From NCBI GenBank assembly GCA_002298885.1, contig DBMK01000182.1, positions 1 to 13,513 of the forward strand: a stretch of 13,513 nucleotides of DNA, read 5' to 3'. Below the pieces are notes generated by a model, which saw nothing but the letters and a program-made list of their open reading frames with translations, was not told where the DNA came from and did not search any database. Position 1 is the first letter of the stretch, and the number at the start of each line of letters is the position of its first letter. Shown piece after piece: positions 6,001 to 13,497 of the stretch. The translations under genes were made by a program, and so were the position numbers. This DNA comes from Anaerolineaceae bacterium UBA700 (GTDB lineage Bacteria; Chloroflexota; Anaerolineae; Anaerolineales; Anaerolineaceae).

Positions 6001-6343
6001 TGTTCCCTCCGGTGACGGTACGAGCATCCTTCGGTGCGTTGTAGGTGTGGCCGCCCGTCCCGCCGTTGGCATCCGGACCGTTCCAGGTCCACGCCTGCGT
6101 CCACGGCTCCGCCGGCTCTTCGGCGGTGTAACCGGTACGTTGGGCGTCGTGGGCTTCCTGGGTCCATTCAGATGCGGCGGCGGCCGAGGCCACCTGCGCT
6201 CCGAGCCAGTTCCCCACAGCCAGGCCCTTGAATACGGCCAGCGGACTCCCCAACGCTGCGGTAAAAACCATGACCCCTAATAGGGCCAGGCTGAAAATTC
6301 CCCTCGTCCACGAGCTCAAAGTAGTCTCTCGATGTTCGTGCAT
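32..6343 (-). CDS. Giant secreted multidomain protein: PQQ-type beta-propeller, lectin-like sandwich, DUF5060 and clan GH-A-like glycosidase barrel
   Basis: A 2103-residue exported protein, probably binding and cutting extracellular polysaccharide. Residues 1-57 hold a basic start, a hydrophobic core (about 16-31) and an Ala-rich cleavage region. Residues 58-565 look like a PQQ/WD40-type propeller (repeats such as [12 protein letters not shown]). A Thr/Pro linker (about 568-690) leads to a concanavalin-like sandwich plus a second beta domain (690-995), a longer octad linker (about 993-1173), DUF5060 (about 1174-1335) and a TIM-barrel-like region. The barrel is interrupted by two jelly-roll-like inserts ending in VYVDEARMW and AWIDDVQIV (about 1376-1535 and 1718-1880). 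E1643 in YINEGDP and E1922 in VRGETG fit the acid/base and nucleophile of clan GH-A; the pairing is inferred. A beta-sandwich ends the protein. The ATG has GGGAGGGA four bases upstream. The substrate and GH family are not recognised; an adhesin role is possible. A c-di-GMP aptamer lies in its leader. Confidence 0.88.
2824..3366 (-). repeat. Tandem 24-bp repeats coding a Thr/Pro octad linker
   Basis: Within the giant exported protein, about 15 tandem units of eight codons follow the pattern P-T-(S/A)-T-x-T-P-L, where x is N, R, K or W. They are followed by a less regular Thr/Pro/Ala tail. The period is 24 bp and the units are imperfect at DNA level. One stretch is degenerate ([19 protein letters not shown]), suggesting old copies. 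The linker separates the lectin-like part from the DUF5060/barrel part. Such linkers are usually extended and often glycosylated; that is general knowledge, not seen here. Confidence 0.9.
4270..4640 (-). repeat. Irregular Thr/Pro/Ser linker between propeller and lectin-like domain
   Basis: A roughly 120-residue low-complexity coding stretch rich in Thr, Pro, Ala and Ser, with recurring TATKT, TATNT and PLPPTAT units of variable spacing. It joins the beta-propeller to the lectin-like sandwich. It is less regular than the octad linker further toward the C terminus, so it has probably diverged longer or grown by unequal exchange of other units. Confidence 0.8.
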
Positions 6344-6355
6344 GGGTCCCTCCCG

Positions 6356-6398
6356 AAAAAATTAAAAAAATACCCCTCACGCCAAATAGCCTGAGGGG
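6356..6398 (-). terminator. Intrinsic terminator of the c-di-GMP riboswitch (expression platform)
   Basis: Read on the minus strand, CCCCTCA (6398-6392) pairs with TGAGGGG (6379-6373) around a 12-nt loop. TATTTTTTTAATTTTTT follows at once, then the ribosome binding site of the giant exported protein. A terminator between an aptamer and a start codon is expected of a transcriptional riboswitch. The loop-side bases CAGGC (6393-6389) can pair with GCCTG (6425-6421) at the 3' end of the aptamer, giving a competing antiterminator. Confidence 0.8.
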
Positions 6399-6420
6399 CA
6401 ATATATAGTACACAACTGTC

Positions 6421-6516
6421 CAGGCGGCTCGGCGATCATGCGGGCCAGGTTGAAACAACTGGTGTCCCGTTTAGACCCGTAACTTTGCGGCCCTGCCTTT
6501 CGGCAAGTTAGCTTTT
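6421..6516 (-). ncRNA. Cyclic-di-GMP-I riboswitch (GEMM-I) aptamer
   Basis: Read on the minus strand, the conserved parts of the class I c-di-GMP aptamer appear in order. A TGCC/GGCA stem is closed by a GAAA tetraloop (6498-6501). It is followed by GGGCCGCAAAG, whose GCAAAG core lies at 6488-6483. Next is GGGTCTAA, the usual tetraloop-receptor side (6478-6471). A second hairpin has CCAGTTG facing CAA(C)CTGG. The 3' conserved block GATCGCCGAGCCGCC lies at 6437-6423. TAAC before the first hairpin can pair with GTTA after GCAAAG, a covarying version of the usual GGC/GCC. The match was made from memory of the family consensus. It lies on the same strand as, and 78 bases before, the ATG of the giant exported protein. 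Confidence 0.9.
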
Positions 6517-6580
6517 TTCTGTTTTTCTTATCTTCGCATTAATCCAGGGTTTTCGTTAGATTTGTGACGGCGGCTTGCTG

Positions 6581-6598
6581 TGTGAAATAAAATTCACA
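6581..6598. promoter_or_regulatory. Perfect inverted repeat TGTGAA-N6-TTCACA, operator candidate
   Basis: Six-base arms TGTGAA and TTCACA around the AT-rich spacer ATAAAA. It lies between the candidate -10 at 6620-6625 and the riboswitch, just downstream of the predicted start of the giant-protein transcript. It resembles a CRP/FNR-family half-site pair, but the TGTGA/TCACA spacing is 8 rather than the usual 6, so the binding protein is unknown. Confidence 0.4.
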
Positions 6599-6619
6599 AT
6601 ATCGCCATTCACTCCACGC

Positions 6620-6625
6620 ATTATA
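6620..6625 (-). promoter_or_regulatory. Candidate -10 box for the riboswitch-giant protein transcript
   Basis: On the minus strand a perfect TATAAT lies about 100 bases before the aptamer. No good -35 hexamer is present at 16-18 bases, so an activator or another sigma factor may be needed. Transcription would start near 6613, giving a leader of about 270 bases that includes the palindrome, the aptamer and the terminator. Confidence 0.4.
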
Positions 6626-6635
6626 ACTACCTTTT

Positions 6636-6698
6636 GGGTGTTCCACCCATAACAAATGTGTTATATACCCCCGCTGTTATGCGCGCCGCCGGCATAAC
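6636..6698. repeat. Cluster of three short inverted repeats after the sensor gene
   Basis: Three perfect hairpin-forming units stand side by side: GGGTG/CACCC (6636-6648), ATAACA/TGTTAT (6649-6664) and GTTATGC/GCATAAC (6676-6698). The motif ATAAC or its complement recurs in the last two and again near 6623-6627. None is followed by a T-run on the minus strand, so they are not clear intrinsic terminators for the sensor gene, although they could stop or stabilise its 3' end or act as an operator cluster. Confidence 0.5.
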
Positions 6699-6705
6699 AA
6701 AAATG

Positions 6706-9700
6706 TTAATCGGAGCGTTGGTTTGCCGCCGGATCCTGGTTTTCGCTCTCCACGATTTTGAGGAACGCATCCGCCACACACGGGTCAAAATGCTTGCCGG
6801 ATTGCTCGCGGATGTAGGTAATCACCTCGTCGCGCGGCCACGGGTCGCGGTAGCGGCGTTTCGACAACAATGCATCCCAAACGTCCACCACAGCGAAAAT
6901 GCGCGCCGCCATCGGAATCTCCTCGCCTTTCAGGCCGCGCGGGTAGCCGCTGCCGTCCCATTTTTCGTGGTGGCAGAAGGGAATGTCCAGAGCCGGGCGC
7001 AGGAAGGGAATCAGCGACAGCATTTCGTGAGCGTACGCCGGGTGGCGGCGCATGATCTTCCACTCGTCCGGGGTCAGCGGCCCCGGCTTATTCAGAATGG
7101 TATCCGAAACGCCGATCTTGCCGAAATCGTGCAGCCAGGCGCCCCGGCGTATGTTGACCAGTTCTTCATCCTCGACGCCCATGGCCCGGGCCAGGCGCAG
7201 AGTCAGCTCGGTTGAACGATAGCTGTGCTCCTCGGTATCTTCGTCGCGCAGGGCCAATGCCTTGCCCAGGCTTGCCAGGGTCGAATCAAACGCCTGGGTC
7301 AGCTCGATGTTCGATTTCTGCAGTTCTTTAAACAGCGTGGCGTTATCGATGGCGATGGCGGCCTGCCCGGCCAGCGTTTCCAGGTAGTTCAGCCACTCTG
7401 AGTCGGCGGCAAAGCTGGTGCGATGGAATACCTCCAGCACGCCGCGCACCTGGCCCTTGGCAATCAGCGGCACCGCATGGTAGGTAATGAAACCTTCCCC
7501 GGCCAGCGGGCCGGCGCGCAGGAAGGCTTTCCCCAGCTCGGGCAGGTTCGGAACGGAGACGATGATGCGTTCCTTGGCGGCCCGCCCGGCATGCCCCTCT
7601 CCGAACTGCAGTTGGGCTGCCTCGATCGCCTGGGTGCGGAAGCCCTGCCCGGCTGCGTATTCCAGCGTGTGCAGGTGCTGATTCAGCAGCAGCACATCCG
7701 TTGCGTCGCCGTGGAGCTGAGCCAGGGTCTGTTCGAGCAGGATTTCGAGGGTGACTTTCAGGTCGAGGCTGTTATTGATAGCAATGTCGATCTTGCGCAG
7801 GGCCGTAAGGTGCTTCAGGCGCCGTTCGGTTTGCTCGTGCAGGCTGGTGCGTTGGATGGCGTTGGCCGAAATGTCGGCCACGGACGTCAGCACGCGCATT
7901 TCGTCCGGCTTGATCTCGCGGTTGCGTCCCACCGCCAGCACCCCCAGGACGATGCCCTGGGTCGTAAGCGGAGTCACCGCCAGCGCCTCCACCATCTTCA
8001 GCCAGCCAGTCTGCACCAGGCCGGGATGGTTCTTGAGGTCGTTATCCAGGTAAGGCTGTCCACTGGCGATTACGCTTCCGACCTCACCCTGGCCCGGGCG
8101 CAGGCGGATGCCTCGGCTTTGCTCGAAAACGCCGCGGGTCAGCTCAAACACAACTTCGCCGCTGCCTTCATCGATCATCCCGATGGCGGCTCCGTCGACG
8201 TTTAGCAGCTCGGTGATCTGGTCCAGGATCACCGGCAGCATCTCCGCCCGGTTATTGGCCTTGCGCAGGGCAGCGCTGACAATTGAAATCGATTCCAGCT
8301 CTCGCTCGCGCTGCTTACGCTGGGTGATATCCCGCGAGATGCCAAACGTGCCCACGATCTTGCCCTGTGGGTCGCGCAGGGGCAGCTTGGTGCTGGAAAC
8401 CCAGTTGGATGGCCGGCCTGGCCACCTTTCTTCGGCTTCTTCACCGATCACTGGCTGGCCGGTGCGAATGATTTGCTGCTCGCTTTCGTAAAATGAACGG
8501 GCTACGTCCTCGTCGAAGAAATCGAAATCCGATTTGCCGACGGCATCCTTTGGATCGGCGATCCCGAATTTTTCAATGTGCATTTTGCTGATGCGAATGA
8601 AGCGGCTGTTGAGATCCTTGAAGTACAGCGCATCCGGGGAGTTGTTCATCAGAGCATCCATCAAAAATTGCTCATGCGCCAGGGCTTCCTCGGCCTGTTT
8701 CAGCTCGCTAACGTCCGATATATAACCCTCGATTGCGCTGACCGCGCCGGTGGCGTCGAAAATTCCCTGCCCCTGTTCCCACACCCATTTTTTCTTTCCC
8801 CCTTTGGCGGTAATCTGGTAGCTGAGCCGGAACGGCTGTTTTTCGGCCAGCCCAGCTGCCACTTCGTCCCGCACTCGCTGCTGGTCCTCGGGGCAAATGA
8901 TATCGTTGTAAGCGATGCGTTTGCTCCCGATCAGGTCCTCGGGTGCATATCCGGTCAGTTCCAGGCAGCCCTGGCTGACGAAACTCATCGTCCAGGAAGG
9001 ATCGTTGTGGCAGCGGTAAGCCATGCCCTGCAAATTGCTGAACAGGGTGGCCATCGCGCGCTGGCTTTCTTCCAGGGCACGCTCCACTTTCTTGCGCTCG
9101 GTGATGTCGCGGATTGCCATCACCAGGCGCGGCTTCCCGCCCAGGGAGGCCAGGCGGATATTCACTTCGATCCAGAATGCCTGCCCGGCCTTGTTGCGCG
9201 TGCGCCACTCTACGAGTTGAGGTTTCTCGATGGCGGCCTTGCGGAAGTGGTGCATGGCCTCCCGGTATGTGTACGGTGGCTCGTCCAGGCAGAAATCGCG
9301 AATGCCCAGTTTGATTACTTCCTCGCGAGTATACCCAAACAGCTCGGTTACCCGCGGGTTAGCGTCCAAGATCGCTCCGCTGGCCAAATCGTTCACCAGG
9401 ATTGCGTCGTTCACCGAATCGAAAATTGCCCGCAATTGCTGCTGGCCGTCCGCCTGCGCAGCCTGTGCGCGCTGGCGCTGGCTCAACACGCTGGCCACGA
9501 TCAATGTCGTCAGGCTGAGGGTGGCTATATATACCTGTACCAGTAGCAGGTTTTCGCTGGGCGTGGCACTCACAAATGGGCCGACGTCGTGCAGGGTGGC
9601 CAACACGGCCGTAATCGCGATGATCAGGGTCGAAAGGGTTGCGCCGCGGAATCCCAGGCGGAAGGTGGCCCACAATACCAGGGGAAAAGTCAGGTATTTG

Positions 9701-11584: not shown

Positions 11585-11627
11585 TTTTTATTGATTTGGG
11601 CTGCAAAGCAGCCCAAATCAATAAAAA
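11585..11627. terminator. Perfect 43-bp palindrome between zinc-ribbon and transporter genes
   Basis: Two 20-base arms match without a mismatch around a 3-base loop; the GC-rich tip is GGGCTGC/GCAGCCC, with AT-rich ends. It begins about 6 bases after the zinc-ribbon stop codon. As RNA it would form a very stable hairpin. The T and A runs are inside the arms, so it is not a textbook terminator for minus-strand transcripts, although ATTTTTT follows about 6 bases beyond the stem core. It could end the zinc-ribbon transcript, limit read-through into the transporter, or be a protein-binding site. Confidence 0.6.
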
Positions 11628-11633
11628 AATATG

Positions 11634-12477: not shown

Positions 12478-12520
12478 GATATTTGCAATATTAGCGTGCG
12501 CGATTCACCCAACGGGCGGA

Positions 12521-12526
12521 TAATAT
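12521..12526 (+). promoter_or_regulatory. Candidate -10 box of the phosphotransferase gene
   Basis: TAATAT lies only five bases before the ATG at 12532. If used, transcription would start at or within a base or two of the ATG, giving a leaderless mRNA, which fits the lack of a clear ribosome binding site. No good -35 box is seen. Confidence 0.3.
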
Positions 12527-12531
12527 ACCCC

Positions 12532-13497
12532 ATGTATAGTTTTTCTAAGATCCCATTGACCAAAGATATTGCCCGCTCCATCGTCAGTGCCCATTTCGGC
12601 TCGCAGCGCGGGCTGCATTCCTTTGAGGAACTGAAAGAAGGCTATTACAATGCGGCGGCCCTGCTGGAGCTGGACGACGGCTTGAAATGCGTGCTCAAGG
12701 CGGCCCCGCCCGATTCGGTGCAGGTGCTGCGCTACGAAAAGGATATCATGCGCACGGAAGTCAGCGTCATGCGCCTGGTGCGCGCCCAGACCGAGGTGCC
12801 CTGCCCGCAGGTTTTAGTTTACGATACCTCGCGGCGCCTGTTGGACGCCGATTTCTTCATCATGGAGTTCTTGAACGGGATTCCTTTCAACCGGCTGCGG
12901 CGTGACCTGGCCCAGCCGGCCCAGGCGCGGGTCGAGCGCGGCATGGGCCGCCTGGCCCGGCAGATCAACCGCATCACCGGCCCGGCCTTCGGTTATTTCG
13001 CTCAGCCGGAGAAACCCGGCGGCACCTGGCGGGACTGCTTCGCCAACATGCTGCGCGACCTGCTGCTGGACGGCTGGGAGGCCGGGGTGGTCCTGCCCTT
13101 GGGCTACGAGGAGCTCTTCCATCGCCTGGAATCCCATTTCGACGCCCTGGACGAGGTGGAAACGCCCTGCCTGCTGCATTGGGACCTGTGGGACGGCAAT
13201 ATTTTTGTCGATCCGCACACGCACAAGATCACCGGGGTAATCGACTACGAGCGCGCCTTGTGGGGCGACCCGCTGATGGAAGTGATCTTCTCGAACCTGG
13301 ACCCGTCCAGCGCGTACGTCCAGGGCTACCGCACCAACCTGCTGGCCACGCCCAACCAGCGCCGGCGCCGCCTGCTTTACAACGCCTACCTGTACCTGAT
13401 CATGGTCATCGAATGCACCTACCGCAAATACGAGACTAACGACCAGGAAAATTGGACCCGGCCGCGGCTGGAGGAGACGCTGAACGCGTTAAAATAA
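12532..13497 (+). CDS. APH-family (aminoglycoside phosphotransferase-like) small-molecule kinase
   Basis: A 321-residue protein of the APH/choline-kinase fold, predicted to transfer phosphate from ATP to a small molecule. K56 in CVLKAA is the likely ATP-binding lysine, with E76 a candidate partner. The catalytic loop LLHWDLWDGN places H216, D218 and N223 in the HxDxxxxN pattern, and VIDYERALWGDP supplies the metal-binding D238. These are the usual active-site residues, so it is probably active. The substrate cannot be told from sequence; antibiotic resistance should not be assumed, since most chromosomal relatives are of unknown role. I chose ATG 12532; GTG 12496 would add 12 residues without a ribosome binding site. 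It diverges from the zinc-ribbon gene and stands alone on the plus strand. The stop is 16 bases before the window end. Confidence 0.88.
   Translation: MYSFSKIPLTKDIARSIVSAHFGSQRGLHSFEELKEGYYNAAALLELDDGLKCVLKAAPPDSVQVLRYEKDIMRTEVSVMRLVRAQTEVPCPQVLVYDTSRRLLDADFFIMEFLNGIPFNRLRRDLAQPAQARVERGMGRLARQINRITGPAFGYFAQPEKPGGTWRDCFANMLRDLLLDGWEAGVVLPLGYEELFHRLESHFDALDEVETPCLLHWDLWDGNIFVDPHTHKITGVIDYERALWGDPLMEVIFSNLDPSSAYVQGYRTNLLATPNQRRRRLLYNAYLYLIMVIECTYRKYETNDQENWTRPRLEETLNALK

Follow-up and report, generated by a model that had tools for sequence, protein, structure and literature searches.

A GEMM-I riboswitch with a cGAMP-type pocket base and a predicted OFF platform upstream of an Anaerolineales gene for a large, probably exported glycosidase

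The minus strand of the window, by which we mean the whole stretch of 13,513 nucleotides that was analysed, carries a real riboswitch in the leader of a 2103-residue open reading frame, and the class name of this riboswitch conceals a pocket base of the cGAMP type and an expression platform of the OFF type. The aptamer has the GEMM-I fold with an adenine at position 20 (A20), and downstream of it lie an intrinsic terminator and a segment complementary to the 3' side of the aptamer, the two together forming a predicted antiterminator. We read the whole as an Anaerolineales GEMM-I OFF switch that prefers cGAMP and stands before a large, probably exported glycosidase gene, in whose nascent leader the cyclic dinucleotide would be sensed, and give this reading a probability of roughly 0.4.

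The aptamer and its class

The preliminary description of this DNA had recognised an ordered GEMM-I signature on the minus strand, made up of a GAAA-capped stem, GCAAAG (6488-6483), GGGTCTAA (6478-6471) and a 3' block, GCCGAGCCGCC (6433-6423), and every one of these elements is present. The covariance-model check that it had proposed gave significant matches. When the window was searched with cmscan against 4227 Rfam families, the top match was RF03167 (c-di-GMP-I-GGC) at 6522-6419, with 51.5 bits and an E value of 6.9e-10, which falls short of the gathering score of that family, 59 bits. Two lower-scoring overlapping matches of the same clan were omitted from the output; they presumably included RF01051, only the best clan member being reported. 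A covariance model of our own, R1, was built from 32 aligned GEMM-I aptamers with the window excluded (position 20 being G in 27, A in four and C in one), and it matched 6523-6420 with 59.3 bits and an E value of 1.1e-14 on a rough calibration, this being its single match at E ≤ 10 across the 13.5 kb window. Thus, on sequence grounds, the leader belongs to the GEMM-I class with near certainty. The folding energy of the aptamer is not unusual, and since 250 of 500 shuffles were equally stable it is uninformative as a score.

The aptamer occupies 6523-6419 on the minus strand as a P1-P2-P3 three-way junction; the span given earlier, 6356-6516, leaves out the 5' strand of P1 as well as some of J1/2. 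Vc2 and 4YAZ numbering was put onto the window by our own alignment. By folding, P1 is a short helix of C6521-A6520-G6519 with C6423-U6422-G6421, and it is followed by J1/2, AAAAAA in the alignments (6518-6513), the last base of which, A6513, is position 20 in Vc2 numbering and A14 of 4YAZ. P2 (6512-6487) opens with the pair G6512-C6487 (21-46), is capped by the GAAA loop (6501-6498) and has an internal loop with the unusual bases U6510 (23) and C6490 (43). A6486, at the start of J2/3, aligns with the ligand-contacting A47. P3 (6483-6427) contains a receptor-like CUAA/AUG and, at its apex, a lengthened hairpin (6469-6441) that is absent from the Rfam model, and by folding the 27-base insertion relative to that model lies within this hairpin. 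On the 3' side, C6424 aligns with the ligand-contacting C92, and C6423 (C93) closes P1 in a predicted pair with G6519. The features reported for GEMM-I in PMC3764141, namely a GNRA loop on P2, a receptor in P3 and the interhelical C44-G83 pair, have their counterparts here in the GAAA loop, the CUAA/AUG receptor, and C6489 and G6433, which stand in invariant columns and were equated with C44 and G83 by position only.

Pocket bases and the likely ligand

R1 was run on the window and 67 further loci, and the resulting 53 matches (alignment A3) were used to survey the pocket. Column 47 is A and column 92 is C in all 53 rows. Two rows duplicate two others (L025 and L016 being the same contig), which leaves 51 distinct places, with G at position 20 in 44, A in six and C in one. 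The 30 genome-derived places contribute 27 G, two A and one C, the 20 IMG/VR places 17 G and three A, and the window itself an A that is aligned with full posterior. The genome-derived places come from 299 genomes of the single phylum to which Catenovulum belongs; 22 of these genomes gave matches, at 35 places in all, of which 30 were used. The IMG/VR loci were chosen by a pattern that leaves position 20 free. U23 is unique to the window (one of 53 rows), as is C43, where 47 of the 53 rows have A.

Other A20 aptamers occur at L016 (twice), L040, L050, L051 and L075, and thus A20 is not confined to Geobacter. An exported-looking protein follows the aptamer in L040, L051 and L016, and a response regulator in L050; by eye only, L040, L050 and L051 appear Firmicutes-like. 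L016 carries its two A20 aptamers in tandem at 974-1279 of the minus strand, with a GUAA loop and on a contig of 5 kb. At 61.6 and 61.5 bits both score above the RF03167 cut-off; our guess is that this contig may not belong to the genome under which it is filed. The protein behind the L051 aptamer (12707-12797) has long Thr/Pro repeats like the linkers of the window's target. A search of a plasmid collection with the leader returned 30 records at E ≤ 10 (best E 1e-3), and the first three of the 30, all from Bacillaceae, were analysed and contain true GEMM-I aptamers, with R1 scores of 72.9 (L073), 80.7 (L074) and 45.5 bits (L075); position 20 is G in the first two and A in L075. The latter (1497-1569) lies on a Peribacillus asahii plasmid before a gene for a large PAS domain S-box protein, and offers a named species in which the ligand of an A20 aptamer could be tested. 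The Thermomicrobium plasmid L065 is a record without a match. Other pocket variants found with R1 were C at position 20 in L017 (1501-1585), and, in L019, L020 and L023 (at 1501), G20 combined with an inverted first pair of P2 (C21-G46, as in 4YAZ). The IMG/VR pattern loci L069-L072, considered as further A20 aptamers, were rejected, as they gave no R1 match and their sequence reads as coding.

The preliminary description had named c-di-GMP as the ligand, and the fold, A47 and C92 agree with this, but position 20 is A, as in cGAMP aptamers. We take A20 to be the mark of the whole GEMM-Ib subclass, and A6513 provides it within a GEMM-I pocket. Of the Vc2 ligand contacts G20, A47 and C92 (PMC4744006), the window retains the last two. 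Geobacter GEMM-Ib riboswitches bind cGAMP, one of them about 1200-fold better than c-di-GMP, and an A20G change in Gmet_0970 shifts selectivity from cGAMP to c-di-GMP (PMC6456294); conversely, a G20A mutant of GEMM-I binds cGAMP and has been used as a cGAMP sensor (PMC7288161, PMC11352751). A second published route to cGAMP binding, C92U (PMC12032345), was ruled out for the window aptamer, in which C92 is retained. From the combination of A20, A47 and C92 we infer a pocket that most likely prefers 3',3'-cGAMP over c-di-GMP. We put this preference at about even odds, because the evidence for A20 has to be set against the incomplete selectivity reported for position 20 and for cGAMP riboswitches (PMC9262584), the P2 base and the occurrence of A20 in Bacillota. 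In its first P2 pair, a point against cGAMP, the window has the G-C of Vc2 where 4YAZ has C-G, and changes in lower P2 are reported to alter selectivity (PMC9262584). U23 and C43 could weaken ligand binding.

The alternative that survives best, doubtful as we consider it, is an ordinary c-di-GMP-I riboswitch that binds c-di-GMP tightly despite A20 and shuts off the large protein. In its fold, in A47 and C92 and in its G21-C46 pair, the aptamer matches the c-di-GMP class, and A20 is found in Bacillota too (L075). Position 20 has been described as contributing to selectivity without strictly enforcing it, c-di-GMP being bound by cGAMP riboswitches as well (PMC9262584). Against this stand the prevalence of G at position 20 (44 of 51 places), the A found there in tested cGAMP aptamers, and the 30,000-fold loss of c-di-GMP binding that mutation of G20 causes in Vc2 (PMC4744006).

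The adjoining gene, upstream on the same strand (10536-6706), was also considered in this respect. Its product has MASE1, three PAS, two GAF and HD-GYP domains, the last with the HD residues and the HHExxDGxGYP motif (HHEKWDGSGYP), an HD_5 score of 120 bits and an alignment to 4mcw, and its sequence makes it a candidate cyclic-dinucleotide phosphodiesterase. The commonest HD-GYP substrate is c-di-GMP, which would suit a c-di-GMP switch, but some HD-GYP enzymes cleave cGAMP (PMC8177086). PmxA is one such enzyme (PMC8844925), and its selectivity involves a glutamine (PMC8177086). Among solved structures, 4mcw is nearest to the window domain by sequence and 5z7c, a 3'3'-cGAMP-specific phosphodiesterase, is second. 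As HD-GYP enzymes fit either signal, this neighbour does not decide the ligand.

It is also conceivable, but improbable in our view, that c-di-GMP and cGAMP are bound alike, and that the leader is a promiscuous sensor reporting their sum, as one leader in Geobacter is reported to do. The combination of A20 with a Vc2-like P2 base would suit such a sensor, and the OmcST operon riboswitch is reported to respond to both dinucleotides (PMC6456294), but with U23 and C43 the P2 loop of the window differs from both models.

Terminator, predicted antiterminator and direction of control

As had been described, a terminator hairpin and a T-rich tail lie between the aptamer and the ribosome binding site. 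The stem (6400-6371, one mismatch) is followed by seven T (6370-6364), then by GGGAGGG (6354-6348) and the start codon (ATG, 6343-6341). The terminator is a strong one, with a stem energy of -21.9 kcal/mol that none of 1000 dinucleotide shuffles attained. A simple scan of 6300-6760 returned no terminator and no minus-strand promoter; we take the stem mismatch to be the reason why it missed the terminator. The promoter scan of the same region gave a single plus-strand site at chance level.

The predicted antiterminator (6434-6380, -19.5 kcal/mol) pairs 6434-6428 with 6386-6380 and 6425-6420 with 6394-6389, so that C92 (C6424-G6390) and C93 are captured along with the 3' strand of P3, and bases at the top of the terminator hairpin are also taken away. 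Its duplex energy was reached by 19 of 5000 platform shuffles, and the match is modest, being equalled in 15 of 80 coding windows. The aptamer (ending at 6421) and the terminator (starting at 6400) have no base in common, and ligand binding therefore cannot directly exclude the terminator.

Transcripts of increasing length were folded at equilibrium, and the ligand was mimicked at 13 lengths by an energy bonus on P1 of -12, -9 or -5 kcal/mol. Without ligand, the energy model favours other folds over the aptamer by 0.3-1.9 kcal/mol at ends 6411-6393, with a P1 probability of 0.03 at end 6400. At 6388-6384 it is the lower helix of the antiterminator that predominates (0.94-0.97) and at 6380-6375 the complete antiterminator (0.93-1.0), the minimum-energy antiterminator state at end 6378 having -46.6 kcal/mol versus -39.3 kcal/mol with the aptamer kept. 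From 6374 on, the terminator displaces the antiterminator (0.79, then 0.99). With the -12 kcal/mol stand-in, P1 was held at all 13 lengths (0.78-1.0), and with -9 kcal/mol at 11 of the 13, falling to 0.03 at 6380 and 0.42 at 6377. With -5 kcal/mol it was at most 0.15 from 6388 to 6376 and was restored from 6375.

Since P1 is held under the strong stand-in, ligand should allow the terminator to form early, and the direction should thus be OFF. At equilibrium, once 6373 is transcribed, the terminator prevails whether or not ligand is present, and OFF control must therefore be kinetic. The Clostridioides difficile Cd1 riboswitch provides a precedent in which aptamer and terminator coexist and the antiterminator pairs the ligand-contacting C (PMC9262584), and in silico the window leader shows the same arrangement, its terminator being compatible with the aptamer and its antiterminator taking the ligand-contacting C. 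We consider a transcriptional OFF direction probable on the basis of this modelling. In the mechanism that we propose, C92-C93 and the 3' strand of P3 (6434-6420) would leave the unliganded aptamer and pair with 6394-6380, which would keep the terminator open and permit read-through. With ligand, the pocket and P1 would be locked, the antiterminator would come too late, and the terminator would stop transcription.

The opposite direction, in which the ligand turns the gene ON in the style of Geobacter pilM, seems unlikely to us. The Geobacter cGAMP switches considered here are indeed ON switches, among them pilM (PMC9262584) and GSU1761 (PMC6456294). However, the pilM arrangement needs an aptamer and a terminator that are mutually exclusive, whereas those of the window have no base in common and the terminator stem is complete in itself. 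That the aptamer is decayed, with the fold kept, no ligand bound and a terminator that merely attenuates, is very improbable, for while U23 and C43 lie within the conserved P2 loop, the RF03167 score is below the cut-off and the folding energy is shuffle-like, A47, C92, the receptor, C44 and G83 (both by position) and a matched antiterminator are all retained.

Target gene, wider meaning and comparison with known systems

The OFF switch that we favour would act on the 2103-residue open reading frame at 6343-32 of the minus strand, which was characterised by domain and sequence matches. Its product has a hydrophobic N-terminus, matches to a PQQ-type propeller within residues 105-344, Thr/Pro-rich linkers, a middle part that is weakly GH16-like, and a GH5-mannanase-like C-terminal part of 874 residues. 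In the latter a GH5-type barrel could be recognised, its two catalytic Glu residues lying in Asn-Glu and Gly-Glu. The product is probably exported. In the genome contigs one relative was found, the Catenovulum locus L001, with 24% over query residues 1549-1673.

Several other features of the window were recorded. A perfect palindrome, TGTGAA-TTTTAT-TTCACA, lies some 60 bases before the aptamer, at 6581-6598 of the minus strand; we take it to resemble an operator of the CRP/FNR kind, and it could provide a further level of regulation, at the promoter. Directly past the stop codon of the HD-GYP gene, an inverted repeat at 6675-6699 (TGTTATGC/GCATAACA, 8/8) is a possible 3' end structure. Between a zinc-ribbon gene and a RarD gene, a long AT-rich hairpin with T tracts (11585-11628, minus strand), which attracted chance Rfam matches, is probably a terminator. 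Among the relatives listed for the RarD protein, at least 120, the six bearing the name of an organism were from Thermanaerothrix (three), Anaerolineales, Anaerolinea and Bellilinea, two of these genera being confirmed members of Anaerolineales, which supports an Anaerolineales host. An open reading frame at 12496-13497 of the plus strand is APH/fructosamine-kinase-like (PF01636, 83.4 bits); named resistance families matched it far below their cut-offs, and no resistance call was made.

As for a physiological role, we suggest, as a possibility less likely than not, that a cGAMP-sensing OFF riboswitch exists in Chloroflexota and controls a large polysaccharide-degrading enzyme, and that the HD-GYP neighbour may clear the signal. 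Within this study, A20 and the switch platform are known in Chloroflexota from a single leader. If the proposal is true, 3',3'-cGAMP signalling extends past metal respiration of the Geobacter type, and if A20 of the window reads cGAMP, the signal is misnamed wherever a database lists such RNAs under c-di-GMP. Riboswitches in general are known from Chloroflexota (PMC12452182), and cGAMP-sensing riboswitches in other bacteria were hypothesised by the Geobacter authors (PMC8835794). Among the papers listed in searches of the open-licence PMC literature, none was seen to describe a cGAMP riboswitch from Chloroflexota, and none joins Anaerolineae, riboswitches and c-di-GMP.

Among Rfam families, RF01051 (c-di-GMP-I) has its architecture in common with the window aptamer, but its consensus has G at position 20, where the window has A. 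RF03167, whose cut-off the window does not reach, has consensus G at both 20 and 47, and as both are A in the window, the name c-di-GMP-I-GGC, in which GGC presumably denotes bases 20, 47 and 92, was rejected at face value. The target product may be compared with ManDH5, a GH5 beta-mannanase (9gmj), from which it differs by inserted beta domains and by the position of its GH5-like part, predicted to be mannanase-like, behind the propeller and the Thr/Pro linkers.

The Geobacter cGAMP riboswitches (GEMM-Ib: Gmet_0970, Gs1761 and pilM; 4YAZ) are alike in the GEMM-I fold, A20, the equivalents of A47 and C92 and, in 4YAZ, a six-base J1/2; the corresponding elements of 4YAZ are A9-A14 in J1/2, A41 in J2/3 and C75 (PMC6274999). 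In contrast to the window, 4YAZ has C15-G40 as its first P2 pair, where the window has G-C, and U13 where the window has A, and the Geobacter riboswitches differ further in phylum, in target gene and in their ON platform, the window platform being predicted to be OFF. In its platform the window leader is instead like Cd1, a c-di-GMP-I riboswitch with the coexisting aptamer and terminator described above, which nevertheless differs in having G11 at the position of G20, A in the window, and a flagellar gene set as its target in place of a large glycosidase.
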